From: Arthrobacter sp. NEB 688
GTDB lineage: Bacteria; Actinomycetota; Actinomycetes; Actinomycetales; Dermatophilaceae
Direction: 5' to 3'
NCBI RefSeq assembly: GCF_013201035.1
Contig: NZ_CP053707.1
Coordinates: 2,046,001 to 2,110,000, forward strand
Length of the DNA stretch: 64,000 bases
Notes under the pieces: generated by a model
What the model was told of the DNA's origin: nothing
Databases searched by the model: none
The model's input: the letters and a program-made list of their open reading frames with translations, nothing else
In this document: one piece after another, positions 497-64,000 of the stretch
How the letters are laid out: every line of letters begins with the position of its first letter
Numbering within the stretch: position 1 is the first letter of the stretch
Program-made: the position numbers and the translations under genes

Positions 497-998
497 GCTC
501 CGGCACCCCACGGCGGCGGTCCGTCCCCTCGGGGGCGGGCCGCCGCCGTCGTGCGCCGCGCAGCCCGGCGCCGAGCGCCAGGCCCCACGCGAGGAAGAGC
601 GGGTCCCACAGCCACGCGTGGCCCCGCACCGCGGCGAGGTCCTCGACCGGGCCGAGCGCGCCGGTCAGGGCGAGGTTCGCCGCGACGACGTTCGCGACGC
701 CGTAGGCCACCAGCGCGCCGGCGACGAGCCAGGCCACGAGGCGCAGGCCGTGGCGCGGGCCCCCGCGACGGGCGGCGAGCACGGGCACCCAGGCGGCGGC
801 GAGCTTGCCCAGCCCGATCGTCGCCAGGGCCAGGCCCGCGGCCACCGGCGACTCGGCCCGCCAGGACCGCGCCCACTCGCCGAGCGTCGAGGCGAGGACG
901 GGGGAGCCGGCCGCCCAGGCGAGGCTCGCGAGGGCGTGGGCCGTCCCGAGGGCGGCGGCGACGAGGAGCCAGGGCGAGGTGGGGCGGCGGGACGGCAC
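483..998 (-). CDS. DUF3995-like small integral membrane protein
   Basis: A 171-residue protein starting at a GTG. It has about four hydrophobic segments: residues 10-30 (LLVAAALGTAHALASLAWAA), 53-75, 86-110 and 130-146. Between the first two are charged loops with WARSW. The N-terminal helix with AHALASLAWA and the WLWDPLFLAWGLALG segment resemble the DUF3995 family of four-helix membrane proteins common in actinobacteria, whose function is unknown. The C-terminal 25 residues are arginine/proline rich and probably cytoplasmic. The gene is convergent with serA, overlapping it by 14 bases, so neither gene has room for a separate terminator. Family assignment is by eye and moderate. Confidence 0.6.
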   Translation of the reverse strand: MPSRRPTSPWLLVAAALGTAHALASLAWAAGSPVLASTLGEWARSWRAESPVAAGLALATIGLGKLAAAWVPVLAARRGGPRHGLRLVAWLVAGALVAYGVANVVAANLALTGALGPVEDLAAVRGHAWLWDPLFLAWGLALGAGLRGARRRRPAPEGTDRRRGVPELSRG

Positions 999-1172
999 GA
1001 CCCCGACGCTACGGACGCCGCGGGGGCTGCGGGATGGGGGAGGACCCGGGGCCCACCCGGACCGGGGGCCGTGGGAACCCGGGGTCCGGACACACTCGAT
1101 CCGTCACGGCCGACGCGGATCGCCCCGGTCCGGGGGAGCCCGGGCGACGGATTCCGTCAGTCGGCCAGCGAT

Positions 1173-52029: not shown

Positions 52030-52533
52030 GTGAGCGAGCGCGTCCGCCGGGCCGTCTGTCCCGGCTCCTACGACCCGGTGACCCACGGCCACCTCGACGT
52101 CGTCGCGCGCGCCGCCGCGCTGCACGACGAGGTGGTCGTGGCGATCCTCCACAACCCCGCGAAGCAGGGGACGTTCACCGTCCCCGAGCGGGTGGCCCTC
52201 GTCGAGCACGCGCTCGCCGACCGCGGCCTGGCCGACGTCGTGCGCGTCGAGGCCTTCGCCGACCGCCTCCTCGTCGACGTCTGCCGCGACCTCGGGGCCG
52301 ACGTCCTCGTCAAGGGCCTGCGCGGCGGCACCGACTTCGACTACGAGCTGCCGATGGCCCGGATGAACCGGCACCTGACCGGGCTCGAGACGCTCTTCCT
52401 GCCCGGTGAGCCCTCGCTGGCCCACGTGTCGAGCTCCCTCGTCAAGGAGGTCGTCCGCTACGGCGGCGACGTGAGCGGCCTCGTACCGGACGAGGTGCGC
52501 GACGCCCTCGTCGCCCGGCTGCGTGACCGCTGA
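52030..52533 (+). CDS. coaD: Phosphopantetheine adenylyltransferase
   Basis: A 167-residue nucleotidyltransferase that makes dephospho-CoA from 4-phosphopantetheine and ATP. It has CPGSYDPVTHGHLDVVARAA (T-x-x-H motif near residue 10) and VLVKGLRGGTDFDYELPMAR with LPGEPSLAHVSSSLVKEVVR. These are the standard substrate-binding stretches. GTG 52030 lies seven bases after TAGGTT, so its mRNA is probably leaderless. A TTG start at 52021 would overlap this box. The acyltransferase gene overlaps its end by 11 bases. Confidence 0.95.
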   Translation: MSERVRRAVCPGSYDPVTHGHLDVVARAAALHDEVVVAILHNPAKQGTFTVPERVALVEHALADRGLADVVRVEAFADRLLVDVCRDLGADVLVKGLRGGTDFDYELPMARMNRHLTGLETLFLPGEPSLAHVSSSLVKEVVRYGGDVSGLVPDEVRDALVARLRDR

Positions 52534-54643
52534 GGCGAGCGCCCCGGAGCAGGCCCGCGCCGGGCAGCGCTCGACGGGGCGGCGACCCGGCTTCCGGCGC
52601 GACGTCGAGGGCCTGCGTGCCGTCGCGGTCCTCTCGGTGCTGGCCTACCACGCCGGTCTGCCGGTCCACGCGGGCTTCGTCGGCGTCGACATCTTCTTCG
52701 TCATCTCGGGCTTCCTCATCACCGGCCTGCTCGTCGCCGAGCTCGACCGGACCGGCACCGTCTCGTGGGTGCGCTTCGTCGGCCGGCGCGTGCGCCGGCT
52801 GCTGCCCGCCGCCGTGGTCGTCCTGCTCGTCACGACGCTGTTCACGTGGCTCGTCGTCCCCGGGCAGCGCCGCCAGCAGGTCGGCCACGACGTCATCGCC
52901 GCCGCGACGTACGTCGTCAACTGGGTCCTTGCCGGCCGTGAGGTCGACTACCTCGCCTCGGACGTGCGCCCCTCGCCGGTCCAGCACTTCTGGAGCCTCG
53001 CCGTCGAGGAGCAGTTCTACGTCGTCTGGCCGCTGCTCCTCCTGGCCCTCGCGCTGCTCGCCCGCCGGACGGGTCGGCGCCCCGACCGCCGCACGGTCGC
53101 CGTCGCGCTCGGCGCGCTGACCGGCGCCTCGTTCGTGTGGTCGCTCATCGCCTCGCACACGAGCCCGGAGGCGTCCTTCTTCACGACGACGACCCGCGTC
53201 TGGGAGCTCGGGGTGGGCGCGCTGCTCGCCGTGTGGCTGACCGGGCGGGAGCGCCCGCAGGCGCGCAGCCGGGCCGCCGACGCCCTCGGCTGGGTGGGTC
53301 TCGTCGCGCTCGTCGTCGTCGCCGTCGCGCTGCCGACGGGCATCGAGTGGCCGAGCGGGTGGGCCCTGCTGCCGACGCTGCCGACCGCGCTCGTCCTCTG
53401 GGCCGGGTGGCGCGGCGGCCGCAACGGCCCCGTCCGGCTCCTCGGCGCCCGCGCGATGGTCTGGGTCGGGGGCCTGTCGTACTCGATCTACCTCTGGCAC
53501 TGGCCGGTGCTCGTCCTCGGCGACTGGAGCGCCGAGCGCCTGACCGGCGGCCCGCTGCCCGGATGGGCCCGTGTCGCGCTCGCGCTGGGCTCGGTGTGGC
53601 CGGCCTGGGTGTCGTGGCGGTTCGTCGAGCAGCCCATCCACCACGGGGCCTGGCTGCGGCGCCGGCCCCGTGCGCTCGTCGCCGCCGGGCTCGGGATGTC
53701 CGGCGTGGCCGTCCTCGCCGCCCTCCCGCTCCTGCCGCTGGCCTCGCCCTTCGTCACCACGCCGGAGGACGGACGCGTCCCGCCGGTCTCGCAGCTCGGG
53801 GCCGCCACCGTCGTGCCGGGGCGCGCCGTCGCCGACGACGTGCAGCCCGGCTGGGTCACGCCCGACCCCCTCGTCAGCGGGGAGGACCGCCCGGACGCCG
53901 ACGTCGACCGCTGCCAGGTCGACCACGACGCGACCGAGCCCGTCGCGTGCACCTTCGGCGACCCGCGCGGCGCCGTCACCGTCGCGCTCGTCGGGGACTC
54001 CAAGGCCATGCAGTGGCTGCCCGCGCTGCAGGAGCAGGCCGGCGAGCGGGGGTGGCGCGTCGTCACGTACGGCAAGTCCGCCTGCGCCTTCGCCGCGGCG
54101 CCCGCGGCGAGCGCCGGCCGGGCCTACCCCCAGTGCGACGCCTGGAACGCCGCCGTCTCGCGCGCGCTCGCGGCCGACCCCCCGGACGTCGTCGTCACCT
54201 CCGGCGTCGCCCGAGGGGCCTGGGACGGCTCGCGCACCGACGCGCCCCTCCTCGAGGACGGCTACGCCCGGCGCTGGGCAGCCCTGGCGCGCGCCGGCGT
54301 CCCCGTCGTCGTCGTCGGGGACAGCCCGGTCTCGCCGGACGACCTCGACGTCTGCGCCGCCTGGCACCCCGACGCGCTCGCGCAGTGCACCTTCGCCGCC
54401 GCGCCGGCGCTCGCCGCGAGCGGGCTGCCCGTGCAGCGTCCGGCCGTGCAGCGGGCGGGGGAGGGCGTCACGCTGCTCGACCTCACCCCGTGGGTCTGCC
54501 CCGGTGGCGAGTGCCCCGTCGTCATCGGGCACGTCACCGTCCACCGGGCCGGCGACCACGTGACGGCCACCTACGCGCGCACCCTCGCGCCCCAGGTCGC
54601 CGGCGCCGTCGAGGTGGCCCTGACCCCCGCGAAGGCTCGGTGA
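52523..54643 (+). CDS. Acyltransferase-3 membrane protein with C-terminal SGNH domain (OafA-type), copy 1
   Basis: A 706-residue protein starting at GTG. Residues 25-400 are an acyltransferase-3 domain with about ten membrane helices: RRDVEGLRAVAVLSVLAYHA (catalytic H), [56 protein letters not shown] and WRFVEQPIHHG. After a linker, an SGNH-type domain begins at TVALVGDSKAMQWLPALQEQ (about residue 488) and ends near HVTVHRAGDHVTATYA. Such OafA-type fusions O-acetylate cell-surface sugars or peptidoglycan. The gene overlaps coaD by 11 bases and precedes yceD, interrupting the usual coaD-yceD order. Confidence 0.85.
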   Translation: MTAEASAPEQARAGQRSTGRRPGFRRDVEGLRAVAVLSVLAYHAGLPVHAGFVGVDIFFVISGFLITGLLVAELDRTGTVSWVRFVGRRVRRLLPAAVVVLLVTTLFTWLVVPGQRRQQVGHDVIAAATYVVNWVLAGREVDYLASDVRPSPVQHFWSLAVEEQFYVVWPLLLLALALLARRTGRRPDRRTVAVALGALTGASFVWSLIASHTSPEASFFTTTTRVWELGVGALLAVWLTGRERPQARSRAADALGWVGLVALVVVAVALPTGIEWPSGWALLPTLPTALVLWAGWRGGRNGPVRLLGARAMVWVGGLSYSIYLWHWPVLVLGDWSAERLTGGPLPGWARVALALGSVWPAWVSWRFVEQPIHHGAWLRRRPRALVAAGLGMSGVAVLAALPLLPLASPFVTTPEDGRVPPVSQLGAATVVPGRAVADDVQPGWVTPDPLVSGEDRPDADVDRCQVDHDATEPVACTFGDPRGAVTVALVGDSKAMQWLPALQEQAGERGWRVVTYGKSACAFAAAPAASAGRAYPQCDAWNAAVSRALAADPPDVVVTSGVARGAWDGSRTDAPLLEDGYARRWAALARAGVPVVVVGDSPVSPDDLDVCAAWHPDALAQCTFAAAPALAASGLPVQRPAVQRAGEGVTLLDLTPWVCPGGECPVVIGHVTVHRAGDHVTATYARTLAPQVAGAVEVALTPAKAR

Positions 54644-56329: not shown

Positions 56330-57191
56330 GCTCCCCGAGGTCGAGGTCGTGCGCCGCGGCCTCGCCACGCACGTCGAGGGCCGGCGGCTCGCGGCCGTCG
56401 AGCTGCGCGGCCACCGCGTGGCCCGCCGCCACGTGCCCGGCCCGCAGGACCTCGCCGAGCGCCTCGCCGGTCGCCGCGTCGCCGCCGTGCGCCGCCGCGG
56501 CAAGTACCTCTGGTGGGACCTCGAGGGCTCGGTCGGCCTCATCCTCCACCTCGGGATGAGCGGCCAGCTGCTCGTCGAGGACGCCGCCGCGCCGGACGAG
56601 AAGCACCTGCACGGCCGGTTCACCTTCGACGACGACGGCCCCGAGCTGCGCTTCGTCGACCAGCGCACCTTCGGCGGGCTCGCCCTCGCCGACCTCGACG
56701 ACGCCGGGGTCCCGCGCAGCATCGCCCACATCGCCCCGGACCCCCTCGAGCCGGCCTTCGACCGGGCCGCGACGATCCGGCGGATCAAGGCCAAGGACAG
56801 CGCGGTCAAGCGCGTCCTGCTCGACCAGACCGTCGTCTCGGGCATCGGCAACATCTACGCCGACGAGTCGCTGTGGCGGGCGCAGGTGCACGGCGAGCGG
56901 CCGGCGTCGGCGCTGAGCAAGCCACGGATCGGCGCCCTGCTCGACCACGCCACCGACGTGATGAACGAGGCGCTGGGCCAGGGCGGCACGAGCTTCGACG
57001 CGCTCTACGTCAACGTCAACGGCGCCTCGGGCTACTTCGACCGCTCGCTCGCGGCCTACGGCCAGGCCGGCCGCCCGTGCCGGCGCTGCGGGACCCCGAT
57101 CCGCCGCGAGCAGTTCATGAACCGCAGCTCGTTCTCGTGCCCGCGCTGCCAGCCCCGCCCACGCAGGGTCAGGGCAGCGGGATCGGCTTGA
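56322..57191 (+). CDS. mutM: Formamidopyrimidine-DNA glycosylase
   Basis: A 289-residue Fpg/Nei-family repair enzyme. Pro2 and Glu3 ([14 protein letters not shown]) are the catalytic N-terminus. [20 protein letters not shown] and [20 protein letters not shown] (helix-two-turn-helix) are conserved. The zinc finger at the C-terminus is [20 protein letters not shown] then CPRC. It excises oxidised purines such as 8-oxoguanine. GTG start overlaps the rnc end by eight bases. The 3-prime 23 bases overlap the convergent acyltransferase gene. Confidence 0.95.
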
Positions 57192-59109
57192 GCCGCACCG
57201 GCTTCCCGGTCTTGTGCTCCGAGAGCTGCGCCATCGCCGTGCGGACGGTCGCGCTGTAGAGGTGTGCCCCGCGGATGCTCGGGTGGATGCCGTCCGACTG
57301 GAGCATCCCGCTGGTGTCGGCCAGCGCCCGGTCCCAGTCGGCGACGACGACGTTGTCGTGGCCGGCGACGACCTCGCGCAGCTGCTCGTTGTCGGTGCCG
57401 GCGCGCGCGTAGCGGCCGTGGACCGTGAGGACGACGACCATCCGGTCGGGCCCGATCTCGCGCAGGGTCCGCTCGATGGACCTCGCGTCGGTGCCGAAGT
57501 TCGTGCCGAAGGCGAGGACGACGACGCGGCGCAGGCCGTCGCCGCGCGCCCCGACGAGTTTCGGCGCCTCGCTCCAGCGCCGGTTGGACCGGGCGTCCAT
57601 GCGGATCTTCGGGAAGTAGTACTCCATCGCCTGCTTGGCGCCGACGAGCATCGAGTCGCCGAAGGCGTCGACCTCCGAGCCCTTCGGCATGCTCCAGTCG
57701 ACGGCGCTCGGGCGGGTGCCGGCGGCGCGCGCGGAGGCCGTGCTCCGGGTGGCCGAGGGGGTGGGGGTGCTCGTGGCCGCGGCCTCACGGGCCAGGGCGG
57801 CCTCGTTGGCCTCGATGAGCTGCTCGGTCGCGGTGCGGTCGGGCGCGGTGACCATGACGGCGGCGGTCGCGACGGCGGCGACGAGGAGGACGGCCCAGAC
57901 CGTGCGGGCCCGACGGGTGCCGGCCCGGCGCATCCGGCCGGCCAGCACCCGGAACGCGCCGCGGAAGCCGTGGCGGCGGACGGGGGTCTCGACGAAGCGG
58001 TACGAGAGGTCGGCCGCGGCCACCGTCACGAGGACCGCCCAGCCGCGGGTCAGGACGTAGTCGAGGCCGCCCGGGGTCACCGGGATGTCCTGGCCGACGA
58101 CGAGGACGACCGGCCAGTGCCACAGGTAGATGCCGTAGCTGCGCGAGCCGACCCAGCGGGCGGCCGGGAGGTCGAGCAGGGCGCGCAGCCGGCCCGGCCG
58201 CTCGACGACGACGAGGACGACGCCCGCGGTGGCGAGCGAGGCCAGGAGGATGCCGCCGCGGAAGGTCAGCGCCGACTGCTCGTCGGCGAGGACGAGCAGG
58301 GCGCCGAGCACGATGAGCGAGAGGGCGCCGACCGTGCGGCGATGGCGCTCCCAGAGGGCGCTCGCCGTGCCGGCGCGCCCCGGGGCCGCCAGGGCCAGGG
58401 CGAGGGCCGCCCCGACCATGAGGCCGGTGGCGTGGGTGTCGGTGCCGTAGTAGACGCGCGTCGGGGCGGTGGGGTCCAGGCGCAGGGCCATGAGCAGCGA
58501 GGACGCGAGCGCCAGGCCGAGGGCCGTCGCCGCGCGGGCCTCGGGGCGGCGGACCGCCCGCAGGAGGGCGAGCAGGGCCAGCGGCCACAGGAGGTAGAAC
58601 TGCTCCTCGACGGCGAGCGACCAGAGGTTGGCCAGCAGCGTCGGGGAGGTCGCCGCGAAGTAGTCGGTGCCGGCCGCGACCTCGAGCCAGTTCGAGGTGA
58701 AGGTCAGCGCCCCGAGCACCTGGCGGCCGACGCCGACGAGCAGGTCGCCCTCCGCGACGCGAGCGAGCAGCACCGCCGACGGCACGAGGACGAGCAGGGC
58801 AGGCAGGAGGCGGCGGGCGCGACGGGCCCAGAAGCCGCGCAGGTCGACCCGGCCGGTGCCCTCGCGCTCGCGCAGCAGGAGCGTCGTGATGAGGAACCCG
58901 GAGAGCACGAAGAAGACGTCGACGCCGAGGAAGCCGCCCGGCAGCCACGAGGGGTCGAGGTGGAAGACGACGACCGCGACGACGGCGAGGGCGCGCAGGC
59001 CGTCGAGCCCGGGGAGGCGGCCCCCCGGCCTCGGGGCGTCGTCGACCGGTCGGGGAGCGGTGGTCACGCCACCGGCCCCGTCGGGCGCCGCGGGCGCGAC
59101 CGGGTCCAT
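57169..59109 (-). CDS. Acyltransferase-3 membrane protein with C-terminal SGNH domain (OafA-type), copy 2
   Basis: A 646-residue protein. The acyltransferase-3 domain (residues 30-400) has [20 protein letters not shown] (catalytic H), [60 protein letters not shown] and [13 protein letters not shown] Thr/Ser/Ala-rich linker ([20 protein letters not shown]) leads to an SGNH hydrolase-like domain: [33 protein letters not shown] and [20 protein letters not shown] (D-x-x-H). It probably transfers acetyl groups to surface glycans. It resembles the protein at 52523 in design but not closely in sequence. It is convergent with mutM and divergent from acyP. Confidence 0.85.
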
Positions 59110-60178: not shown

Positions 60179-63100
60179 ATGTACCTCAAGACGCTGACCC
60201 TCAAGGGGTTCAAGTCCTTCGCCTCGGCGACGACGATGCGCCTCGAGCCCGGCATCACCTGCGTCGTCGGGCCGAACGGCTCGGGCAAGTCCAACGTCGT
60301 CGACGCGCTCGCCTGGGTGATGGGCGAGCAGGGGGCCAAGAGCCTGCGCGGCGGCAAGATGGAGGACGTCATCTTCGCCGGCACCGCCGGCCGCGCGCCC
60401 CTCGGGCGCGCCGAGGTCAGCCTGACGATCGACAACACCGACGGCGCCCTGCCCATCGCCTACACCGAGGTGACGATCACCCGGACGATGTTCCGTGGCG
60501 GCGGCTCCGAGTACGCGATCAACGGCACCGGCTGCCGCCTGCTCGACGTCCAGGAGCTGCTCTCCGACTCCGGCCTCGGCCGCGAGATGCACGTCATCGT
60601 CGGCCAGGGCCAGCTCGACACCGTCCTGCGCGCGACCCCCGAGGAGCGGCGCGGGTTCATCGAGGAGGCCGCCGGCGTCCTCAAGCACCGCCGCCGCAAG
60701 GAGCGCGCGCTGCGCAAGCTGGACCAGATGGAGGGCAACCTCACCCGCGTCCAGGACCTCACCGGCGAGATCCGCCGCCAGCTCGGACCGCTCGGGCGCC
60801 AGGCCGAGGCCGCGCGCCGCGCCGCGGTCGTCCAGGCCGACGTGCGCGACTCCCGCCTGCGCCTGCTCGCCGACGACCTCGTCCAGCTGACCGGCATCGT
60901 CGAGCAGGAGGTCGCCGACGAGACCGCCCTCCTCGAGCGGCGCACCGCCGTCGAGGACGCCCTCGCGACCGTCCGCGGCCGGCTCACCGAGGTCGAGCGG
61001 CAGGCCGCCGACGCCGCCCCCGAGCTCGGCCGCGCCCAGGAGCGCGTCGTGCGCCTGCAGAGCCTGCGCGACCGCCTCGAGTCCACCGGGTCGGTCGCCG
61101 CCGAGCGGGTGCGCCTGCTCTCGCAGGACGAGGTGCACGAGACCACCTCCGGCCGCGACCCCGAGGAGCTGCGCGCGCAGGCCGCCCGCGCCCGCGAGGC
61201 CGAGGAGCTGCTCCAGGCCGAGATCGCCGAGACCACGCAGGCCCTGCAGGACGCCGTCGCCGCCCGCGAGGACGCCGAGAAGGCGTTCGCCGCCGAGCAG
61301 CAGCGCCTCGCGCGCCTGGCCCGCGCCGCGGCCGACCGCCGCGAGGGCCTGGCCAAGCTCGCCGGCCAGGTCGGCGCCCGGCGCAGCCGCATCGAGGCGG
61401 GGGAGGCCGAGATCGGCCGGCTCCAGGCCCTCGTCACCGAGGCCCGCCAGCGCGCCACCGACGCCGAGCGCGAGTTCGCCTCCCTCGAGGGCGGCATCGC
61501 CCACGAGGAGGAGGGCGAGGAGGGGCTCGACACGACGTACGAGGCCGCGGCCGAGCGGCTCGCCGCCGCCGAGGCCGAGGTCGAGCGCCTCCAGCAGGAG
61601 GAGCGCGAGGCCGAGCGCGACCGCACCACCGCGCAGGCCCGCCTCGAGGCGCTCGAGCTGAGCCTGCGCCGCAAGGACGGCGCGGCCACCCTGCTCGAGG
61701 CCGCCGACGACGCGCACGCCGTCATCGGGGCCGTCGCCGCCCTCGTCCAGGTCTCCAAGGGGCACGAGGCCGCGGTCGCCGCGGCGCTCGGCTGGGCCTC
61801 CGAGGCGCTCGCCGTCGGGTCGGCGGACGCCGCCGCGGCGGCGCTCGCCTCCCTGCGCGACACCGACGGCGGCCGGGCCGCCCTGCTCGTCGGCGAGACC
61901 GCCGCCCCCGAGGACCCGTCGGGGTGGCCGGCGCTCGACGCGGACGCCGTCTGGGCGCGCGACGTCGTCACCGCCCCCGGCACCGTCCTGCCCGCCGTGC
62001 ACCAGGTGCTCGAGCGGGTCGCCCTCGTGCCGACGGCCGCGCACGCGGTCGCCCTCGTGGCCCGTCACCCCGGCGTCACCGCCGTCACCGCCGACGGTGA
62101 CGTCTTCGGCCCGGGCTGGGCCCGCGGGGGCAGCAGCGCCGGCGAGAGCCTCCTCGAGGTGCAGGCGGCGCTCGACGAGACCCGCGGGACCCTCGCCGAG
62201 GCCACCGCCCGCGGCGAGCGGGTCCGGTTCGCGCTCACCGCCGCCCGCGAGAAGGCCGCCGCCGCCGAGACCGAGGTCGACGCGGCGCTCGAGGCGCTCC
62301 ACGAGTCCGACGCCCGGATGGCCGCCGTCGCCGAGCGCCTCGGGGGCCTCGGCGCCGCGATGCGCACCGCCGGCGCCGAGGCCGAGCGCGCCGAGAAGGC
62401 CATCGCCAACGCGCAGGAGCGGCTGGAGGGCGATCGCGCCGAGCTCGACGCCCTCGCCCAGCGGCTCGCGGAGGCCGAGTCCGAGCCCGCCGCCGACGAC
62501 ACCGACCCCTCGACCGACGAGCGCGACCGGCTCGAGCTCGACGCCAGCCGGGCGCGCACGGCCGAGACCGAGGTCCGCCTCACCCTGCGCACGAAGGAGG
62601 AGCGGGCCCGCTCGCTCGCGGGCCGCGCCGACTCCCTCGAGGGCGCCGCCCGCAACGAGATCGCCGCCCGCGAGCGGCTGCGCGAGCGCCGCGAGAAGCG
62701 CCGCCGCGAGGCCGAGGTCGCCGCCGCCGTCCACGAGGCCGCCGGGTGGGCGGTCGAGCAGGTCGCCGCCGCCCTGACCCGCGCCGCCACCCTGCGCGAC
62801 GCCGCCGAGGCCGAGCGGGTCGAGCGCGACCGCACCGTCGCCGGGCTGCGCGAGCGGCTCGGCACCGTCCAGGACGAGCTGCGCGACCTCACCGACGCCG
62901 CGCACCGCGACGAGATGGCCCGCGCCCGGCAGCTGGCGCGCATCGAGCAGCTCCAGGCGAGGGCGGTCGAGGAGCTCGGCGTCGACCCCGACGTGCTCGT
63001 GGAGGAGTTCGGGCCGCACCAGCCCGTGCCCCACGTCGCCGCGCCGGGGGAGGACCCCGACGCGCTGCCCGAGCCGCAGCCCTACGTCCGCGAGGAGCAG

Positions 63101-63751
63101 GAGAAGCGCCTGCGCAAGGCCGAGCGGGCGCTGTCGGCCCTCGGCCGGGTCAACCCCCTCGCGCTGGAGGAGTTCGCGGCGCTCGAGGAGCGGCACACCT
63201 TCCTCACGACGCAGCTCGAGGACCTCAAGCGCTCCAAGCGTGACCTGCTCGACATCGTCAAGGAGGTCGACGAGCGCGTCGAGCAGGTCTTCACCGAGGC
63301 GTTCTACGACACGCAGGCGCAGTTCGAGCGGGTCTTCCAGCGCCTCTTCCCCGGGGGCGAGGGGCGCCTGGTCCTCACCGACCCCGACCACATGCTGACG
63401 ACCGGCATCGAGGTCGAGGCCCGTCCGCCGGGCAAGAAGGTCAAGCGGCTCTCGCTGCTCTCCGGTGGCGAGCGCTCGCTCGTCGCGGTGGCGCTGCTCG
63501 TCGCGATCTTCAAGGCGCGGCCGAGCCCGTTCTACATCATGGACGAGGTCGAGGCGGCGCTCGACGACACCAACCTCGGCCGGCTCATCACGCTCTTCGA
63601 GGAGCTGCGCGACTCCAGCCAGCTCATCGTCATCACGCACCAGAAGCGGACGATGGAGGTCGCCGACGCGCTGTACGGCGTCTCGATGCGCGGCGACGGC
63701 GTGACGACGGTCGTCAGCCAGCGCATCCGCGACGTCGCCGCCTCCGCCTGA
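60179..63751 (+). CDS. smc: Chromosome partition protein SMC
   Basis: A 1190-residue condensin ATPase that organises and segregates the chromosome. Walker A is GPNGSGKSN at residues 31-39 in CVVGPNGSGKSNVVDALAWV. Two long coiled coils (about 170-500 and 670-1000), rich in Glu, Arg and Ala, flank a hinge near residues 510-660 (HAVIGAVAALVQVSKGHEAA, AVAAALGWASEALAVGSADA). The C-terminal head has signature LSLLSGGERSLVAVALLVAI and Walker B FYIMDEVEAALDD. The ATG at 60179 is preceded by CGAGAGACG. A hairpin at 63760-63786 follows the stop. ftsY, the usual next gene, is not seen before the window ends. Confidence 0.96.
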   Translation: MYLKTLTLKGFKSFASATTMRLEPGITCVVGPNGSGKSNVVDALAWVMGEQGAKSLRGGKMEDVIFAGTAGRAPLGRAEVSLTIDNTDGALPIAYTEVTITRTMFRGGGSEYAINGTGCRLLDVQELLSDSGLGREMHVIVGQGQLDTVLRATPEERRGFIEEAAGVLKHRRRKERALRKLDQMEGNLTRVQDLTGEIRRQLGPLGRQAEAARRAAVVQADVRDSRLRLLADDLVQLTGIVEQEVADETALLERRTAVEDALATVRGRLTEVERQAADAAPELGRAQERVVRLQSLRDRLESTGSVAAERVRLLSQDEVHETTSGRDPEELRAQAARAREAEELLQAEIAETTQALQDAVAAREDAEKAFAAEQQRLARLARAAADRREGLAKLAGQVGARRSRIEAGEAEIGRLQALVTEARQRATDAEREFASLEGGIAHEEEGEEGLDTTYEAAAERLAAAEAEVERLQQEEREAERDRTTAQARLEALELSLRRKDGAATLLEAADDAHAVIGAVAALVQVSKGHEAAVAAALGWASEALAVGSADAAAAALASLRDTDGGRAALLVGETAAPEDPSGWPALDADAVWARDVVTAPGTVLPAVHQVLERVALVPTAAHAVALVARHPGVTAVTADGDVFGPGWARGGSSAGESLLEVQAALDETRGTLAEATARGERVRFALTAAREKAAAAETEVDAALEALHESDARMAAVAERLGGLGAAMRTAGAEAERAEKAIANAQERLEGDRAELDALAQRLAEAESEPAADDTDPSTDERDRLELDASRARTAETEVRLTLRTKEERARSLAGRADSLEGAARNEIAARERLRERREKRRREAEVAAAVHEAAGWAVEQVAAALTRAATLRDAAEAERVERDRTVAGLRERLGTVQDELRDLTDAAHRDEMARARQLARIEQLQARAVEELGVDPDVLVEEFGPHQPVPHVAAPGEDPDALPEPQPYVREEQEKRLRKAERALSALGRVNPLALEEFAALEERHTFLTTQLEDLKRSKRDLLDIVKEVDERVEQVFTEAFYDTQAQFERVFQRLFPGGEGRLVLTDPDHMLTTGIEVEARPPGKKVKRLSLLSGGERSLVAVALLVAIFKARPSPFYIMDEVEAALDDTNLGRLITLFEELRDSSQLIVITHQKRTMEVADALYGVSMRGDGVTTVVSQRIRDVAASA

Positions 63752-63759
63752 CGACAGAA

Positions 63760-63786
63760 GGGCCGGGCACCCCCGGCGCCCGGCCC
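63760..63786. terminator. Terminator after smc
   Basis: GGGCCGGGC (63760-63768) and GCCCGGCCC (63778-63786) form a 9-bp stem with a 9-base loop containing CCCCCGG. It lies between smc and the convergent small secreted-peptide gene, so it may serve both. Confidence 0.6.
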
Positions 63787-63816
63787 CTCCGTGCCGGGGT
63801 CACCCCCGGCGGTACG

Positions 63817-63945
63817 TCACTTCTGCGCCACGCAGCAGCCCAGGCACGGTCCGCACTTGATGTACGCGTTGGCCGGCAGCGTGGTGGACAGGAGCGTTCC
63901 CCCCGCGATGAGCGAGACGGCGACGATACGAGCAACCTTCTTCAT
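63817..63945 (-). CDS. Small secreted four-cysteine peptide precursor, function unknown
   Basis: A 42-codon gene with all the marks of a real one: an ATG preceded by GAGAGGAA six bases upstream, G/C at third positions, and a textbook Sec signal peptide. MKKVAR is followed by the hydrophobic core IVAVSLIAGGTLLSTT and the cleavage site LPANA, predicted after A27. The mature part would be only 15 residues, YIKCGPCLGCCVAQK, with cysteines 31, 34, 37 and 38 of the precursor. The CxxCxxCC spacing could form two disulfides or bind a metal such as zinc, copper or iron. No family is recognised. It stands convergent to smc; anything further upstream is outside the window except a dyad at 63965-63988. 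Confidence 0.7.
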   Translation of the reverse strand: MKKVARIVAVSLIAGGTLLSTTLPANAYIKCGPCLGCCVAQK

Positions 63946-63964
63946 GGTGTTCCTCTCGGTCGAA

Positions 63965-63988
63965 GTGACCGGGACGCTACTCGGTCAC
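63965..63988. promoter_or_regulatory. Dyad in the promoter of the secreted-peptide gene
   Basis: GTGACCG (63965-63971) and CGGTCAC (63982-63988) form a perfect 7-bp inverted repeat with ten bases between. On the minus strand TAGCGT lies inside it as a possible -10, about 30 bases before the ATG at 63945. A regulator binding here would cover the promoter. Confidence 0.45.
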
Positions 63989-64000
63989 CGGGATCCGCGC

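Follow-up and report, generated by a model that had tools for sequence, protein, structure and literature searches.

The window analysed here is a 64,000-nucleotide stretch, positions 2046001-2110000 of a 4.08-Mb single-contig genome (labelled G000) whose genus is, by inference, Phycicoccus. Near its right end lies a small minus-strand gene, with the following features and neighbours:

63817..63945, minus strand: prepeptide ORF, 42 codons, ATG to TGA (sequence and homologues)
63865..63945, minus strand: signal peptide MKKVARIVAVSLIAGGTLLSTTLPANA, residues 1-27, predicted by eye and aligned in three species
63820..63864, minus strand: predicted mature peptide YIKCGPCLGCCVAQK, 15 residues (sequence and three-species alignment)
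63952..63957, minus strand: GAGAGG ribosome site, 6 nt 5' of the ATG; a related AGG is kept in G002
63974..63979, minus strand: -10-like TAGCGT within the conserved block GAGTAGCGTCCCGGnCACTTC, putative promoter (three-species comparison)
63755..63790, no strand assigned: strong GC hairpin lying between the stop codons of the peptide gene and smc, putative terminator (three species)
60179..63751, plus strand: smc, convergent neighbour, given for context (ORF list and loci read)
63985..64000, minus strand: last codons and stop of an epimerase-like gene that continues past the window edge, given for context (sequence, tblastn)

Elsewhere in the window, two long frames on opposite strands a few kb apart (52523-54643, plus; 57169-59109, minus) have, by eye, the look of membrane acyltransferases whose C-terminal part is esterase-like.

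The prepeptide reads MKKVARIVAVSLIAGGTLLSTTLPANA-YIKCGPCLGCCVAQK, the hyphen marking a cleavage site judged by eye from PANA. The sequence and the ORF list bear out what the first-pass annotation had given for its coordinates and strand, its length, its signal-peptide core and its tail with four cysteines, and the ribosome site reported there was likewise found. The Sec signal peptide proposed there, also assigned by eye (an n-region with KK/R, a hydrophobic core and a PANA site for cleavage), is supported by homologues, the pattern being kept in three species. The predicted released part of 15-16 residues is cationic and has hydrophobic side chains set between the fixed cysteines, and YIKCGPCLGCCVAQK has no His, Met or acidic residues. 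Its calculated [M+H]+ is 1585.74 when reduced and 1581.70 with two disulphides; for the P. jejuensis peptide the corresponding values are 1589.71 and 1585.68.

The gene is present in 3 of the 12 genus genomes: G000, G005 (Phycicoccus jejuensis NRRL B-24460; 93% identity, E 2.5e-22) and G002 (about 60% identity, being 60% by alignment and 62% by search; E 1.2e-12). Matches at E <=1 occurred in six of the 12, the remaining three being weak. The first-pass annotation had made the gene's reality hinge on related genomes keeping the frame or the cysteines and had suggested looking beside smc; both G005 and G002 keep the start, stop, frame, all four cysteines and the site. Among the residues invariant in the three sequences on which this pattern rests are K30, C31, G32, P33, C34, C37 and C38, that is, KCGPCxxCC, around which residues vary, most of the exchanges being from one hydrophobic residue to another (YI / FV / FVI; L / F / Y). 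The sole indel within the ORF is one whole extra codon in G002, with no frameshift.

We compared this pattern with neutral drift by placing 37 random substitutions, equal to the G000-G002 difference, in 20000 runs. The frame with its start and stop stayed intact in 1635/20000 runs, the four cysteines survived in 427/20000 and both in 34/20000; at least 26 identical residues were retained in 88/20000, a bar one residue stricter than the 25/42 observed. Between G000 and G002, 18 codons are the same, 8 differ synonymously (the stop included) and 17 non-synonymously, indicating that the motif, and not the peptide as a whole, is constrained. Differences fall 12/9/16 over the three codon positions, and the codon statistics alone are not striking. 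An identical 113-nt run spans the 5' leader and signal-peptide codons of G000 and G005. Since their smc genes are comparable (93.9% identical, with an identical run of 108), we dropped the idea of exceptional DNA conservation there and make no claim from that run. Because two congeners keep the site and the four cysteines, and drift so rarely preserves frame and cysteines together, we conclude that the 42-codon ORF is, as judged by sequence comparison, a real gene and not a chance ORF.

Across 30 loci read, which include all 12 genus genomes, the peptide stop lies 62-90 nt from the convergent smc stop in 3/3 carriers, and in each the peptide unit stands alone between smc and an epimerase or lepB gene; it follows the epimerase gene in G000 and G005 and lepB in G002. 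Eight of the 9 congeners that lack the peptide have the epimerase or lepB gene directly facing smc: the epimerase alignment ends at a distance of 22-40 nt from the smc stop in six of them and of 116 nt in G004, and lepB lies 58 nt away in G007. In the non-carrier G009 (locus L077), about 0.8 kb of other DNA separates smc from the epimerase gene, and the 3' side of smc may thus tolerate insertions. An extra tail (..SSARGSR) on the epimerase-like protein of both G000 and G005 reaches the peptide's 5' block (in G000 at locus L003, beyond the window edge, about 976-1100, minus strand); in congeners that lack the peptide the protein stops earlier.

The first-pass annotation had suggested that genes that might process or respond to the peptide lie beyond the window edge. 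By Pfam, the neighbours in G005 are an epimerase (PF01370), Peptidase_S26, an M13 peptidase and an SRP54-type FtsY, and those in G002 are Peptidase_S26 and an M13 peptidase; in G000, the NAD-dependent epimerase-like gene and lepB past the edge were matched by tblastn. What lies there is therefore epimerase-like, type I signal peptidase, M13 and ftsY genes. Because the neighbours also occur in non-carriers (epimerase or lepB in 9/9), none looks dedicated to the peptide, and no linked maturation, immunity, receptor or exporter gene was found at the peptide locus of the three carriers.

All three carriers also keep the GAGTAGCGTCCCGGnCACTTC block 5' of the gene and the GC hairpin 3' of it. The block has one copy in its own genome, the single further place having 3 mismatches. 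The hairpin pieces of the three species fold at -45.2, -41.8 and -31.6 kcal/mol, as raw energies with no shuffle control. We found no consensus -35 at TAGCGT, no T run after the hairpin and, in a consensus scan around the peptide gene, neither a promoter nor a terminator; the one Rfam match was far below cut-off (18.8 vs 80 bits). Given the empty scan and this Rfam score, block and hairpin are read as putative promoter and terminator only. Together with its -10-like box, 5' leader and hairpin, the gene looks like a solitary unit.

Wider searches returned no convincing relatives outside the three carriers, either in 186 family genomes (protein and profile search) or in the 396 order genomes drawn, where the match in G495 (5.1e-4, residues 2-29) covered the signal-peptide part only. 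The family protein search gave matches in 13/186 genomes at E <=0.1, three of them real (E 1.2e-12 or better) and ten at 9.9e-4 to 0.085. When read, the frames of those ten held no short secreted cysteine ORF, and the best, in G093, has an internal stop. The profile search matched 100/186 genomes at E <=1; apart from the three carriers, the frames in G093 (1.9e-5), G102 (1.6e-4) and G044 (9.4e-4) were rejected as relatives once read, and five further weak ones, family-like frames of 52-54 codons, were read as encoding no secreted peptide. A DNA pattern for CGPCxxCC matched in 49/186 family genomes, with its backwards control similarly frequent, and the 30 places with loci read held no short signal-peptide ORF. 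Among genome contigs, where near records may be left out, 60 stretches fit a search pattern and one was a relative, P. jejuensis NZ_JOEE01000004.1; 74 stretches fit a pattern in viral contigs, none a relative, and plasmids and phages held no convincing relative. Pfam and NCBIfam (two of the proteins searched), PHROGs and PADLOC (all three searched) and PDB sequences gave no match, and the metal-binding, signalling and bacteriocin-like roles suggested by the first-pass annotation are therefore candidate functions. A literature search found no paper on this peptide; among the matches listed, neither Phycicoccus nor the term CXXCXXCC appears. The gene appears to be genus-restricted and to encode a secreted four-cysteine micropeptide, its export being predicted.

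To place the carriers, we used a tree of partial smc proteins built on 15 of 21 rows, the six omitted being other-genus rows chosen by the author. G000 groups with G005 (support 100/99) and G002 with G007, which lacks the gene (100/100), so that carriers occupy two positions. The carrier label changes twice on this tree, and 86/500 shuffles gave a count as low, so carrier clustering is not significant. The branch of the G012 row is very long, which makes the root unsure. Both early presence followed by repeated losses and transfer into one and the same site are compatible with this distribution.

We tentatively favor a solitary, Sec-secreted, compact cationic peptide, constrained by its cysteines, that would serve as a signal or a bacteriocin-like antagonism factor between related bacteria, a reading to which we give rather less than an even chance. 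In this reading a free-standing gene under its own control signals would yield a 42-residue Sec precursor, exported by the general Sec machinery and probably cut by a housekeeping enzyme, the type I signal peptidase encoded nearby, to a peptide of 15-16 residues. Its four cysteines may then lock it through two disulphides, or persist as thiols in a reducing niche, and the product would act outside the cell. This reading is suggested by the signal-peptide and PANA pattern kept in three species, by cysteines and KCGPC that stay fixed while their surroundings change, by the patchy presence (3/12 genomes, two smc lineages, with the non-carrying sister G007 beside G002) and by the conserved 5' block and 3' hairpin. 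It is weakened by the absence of a linked immunity, receptor or exporter gene and by the empty promoter and terminator scan. Small cysteine-rich peptides and bacteriocins secreted through Sec are the broad kind that it resembles in its predicted Sec signal, small cationic mature part and several cysteines; it differs in being just 15-16 residues long, in lacking a linked immunity gene and in having no Pfam or NCBIfam match. Bacterial cis-defensins, as described in PMC11561630, are also bacterial and cysteine-rich; they have at least three disulphides (six or more cysteines) and a CS-alpha-beta fold, as against four cysteines in 15-16 residues here.

Of the 12 Phycicoccus genomes, only two gave a match to VKOR (PF07884), namely G006 and G008 (loci L116 and L115), and none of the three carriers did. 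As VKOR is the usual actinobacterial oxidation route, its absence from carriers weakens the disulphide step and leaves free thiols possible, a point in favor of an extracellular metal-binding peptide whose CxxCxxCC thiols would bind Cu(I) or Zn(II), to buffer or detoxify, with no partner gene needed. Four invariant cysteines in so short a peptide and a gene that is solitary, with no dedicated partners, would suit such a role, and metallothionein-like peptides, which bind metal through cysteine thiols, offer a parallel, binding by the four cysteines here being a candidate function. The stretches examined, however, hold no adjoining metal transporter or regulator gene, and the mature part lacks His, Met and acidic residues. 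Free thiols outside an aerobic cell are, moreover, easily oxidised. We rate metal binding, the main rival reading, as less likely than not. Placing the two-disulphide intercellular peptide first, still tentatively, and the thiol metal binder second is a matter of judgement.

CGPC is the thioredoxin active-site motif, and its invariance in 3/3 sequences would fit a secreted mini-peptide that catalyses or senses disulphide exchange. Thioredoxins, however, carry WCGPC within a fold; here no Trp precedes the motif, no fold surrounds it and neither Pfam nor PDB returned a match, making such a role improbable.

Methanobactin core motifs have closely spaced cysteines (CGxC), which the short cysteine-rich core resembles, and the product might thus be the precursor of a methanobactin-like or other cysteine-modified RiPP. 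Short cores with closely spaced cysteines are shared with methanobactin precursors (a group treated in PMC3621798); the present precursor differs in its predicted Sec signal. The MbnB/TglH/ChrH family (PF05114) was found in 0/12 genus genomes and in 2/14 control genomes, and no modifying enzyme is among the neighbours identified, which makes this origin quite improbable.

The conserved block and hairpin could instead belong to an RNA gene with no peptide, or the frame be spurious, as the unremarkable codon statistics would allow; given how rarely frame and cysteines survive drift together, a lone indel of one whole codon and the low Rfam score, we regard this too as quite improbable. Cysteine-rich short ORFs can have leader roles, as in the mycobacterial polycysteine attenuators. 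Such a regulatory ORF would sense cysteine or metal through its own translation and so control the gene that comes next. CruR/DUF2946, a copper-responsive example, is a small exported ORF that also has CXXC, with 145 residues, a RAPP arrest motif and a downstream operon (PMC9426467). Here a leader role is very improbable, since the peptide's strand carries no gene after it, convergent smc taking the place of a co-directional gene in 3/3 species, and there is no Pfam match.

Returning to a secreted peptide acting between related bacteria, the gene might represent a new class of secreted micropeptides, free-standing and restricted to the genus, a proposal that we make more tentatively. Such a class would have a CGPCxxCC core in 15-16 residues, depend on Sec and signal peptidase with no maturation enzyme, act outside the cell as signal, weapon or metal-thiol buffer, and be encoded by a self-contained unit of ~230 bp coming and going at a single site beside smc. 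Gene finders often overlook genes of this size, and in actinobacteria little work has been done on secreted peptides as small as this that lack modification enzymes. With its conserved cysteines, fixed site and an empty-site sister genome (G007 beside G002), the locus offers a clean natural comparison for function.
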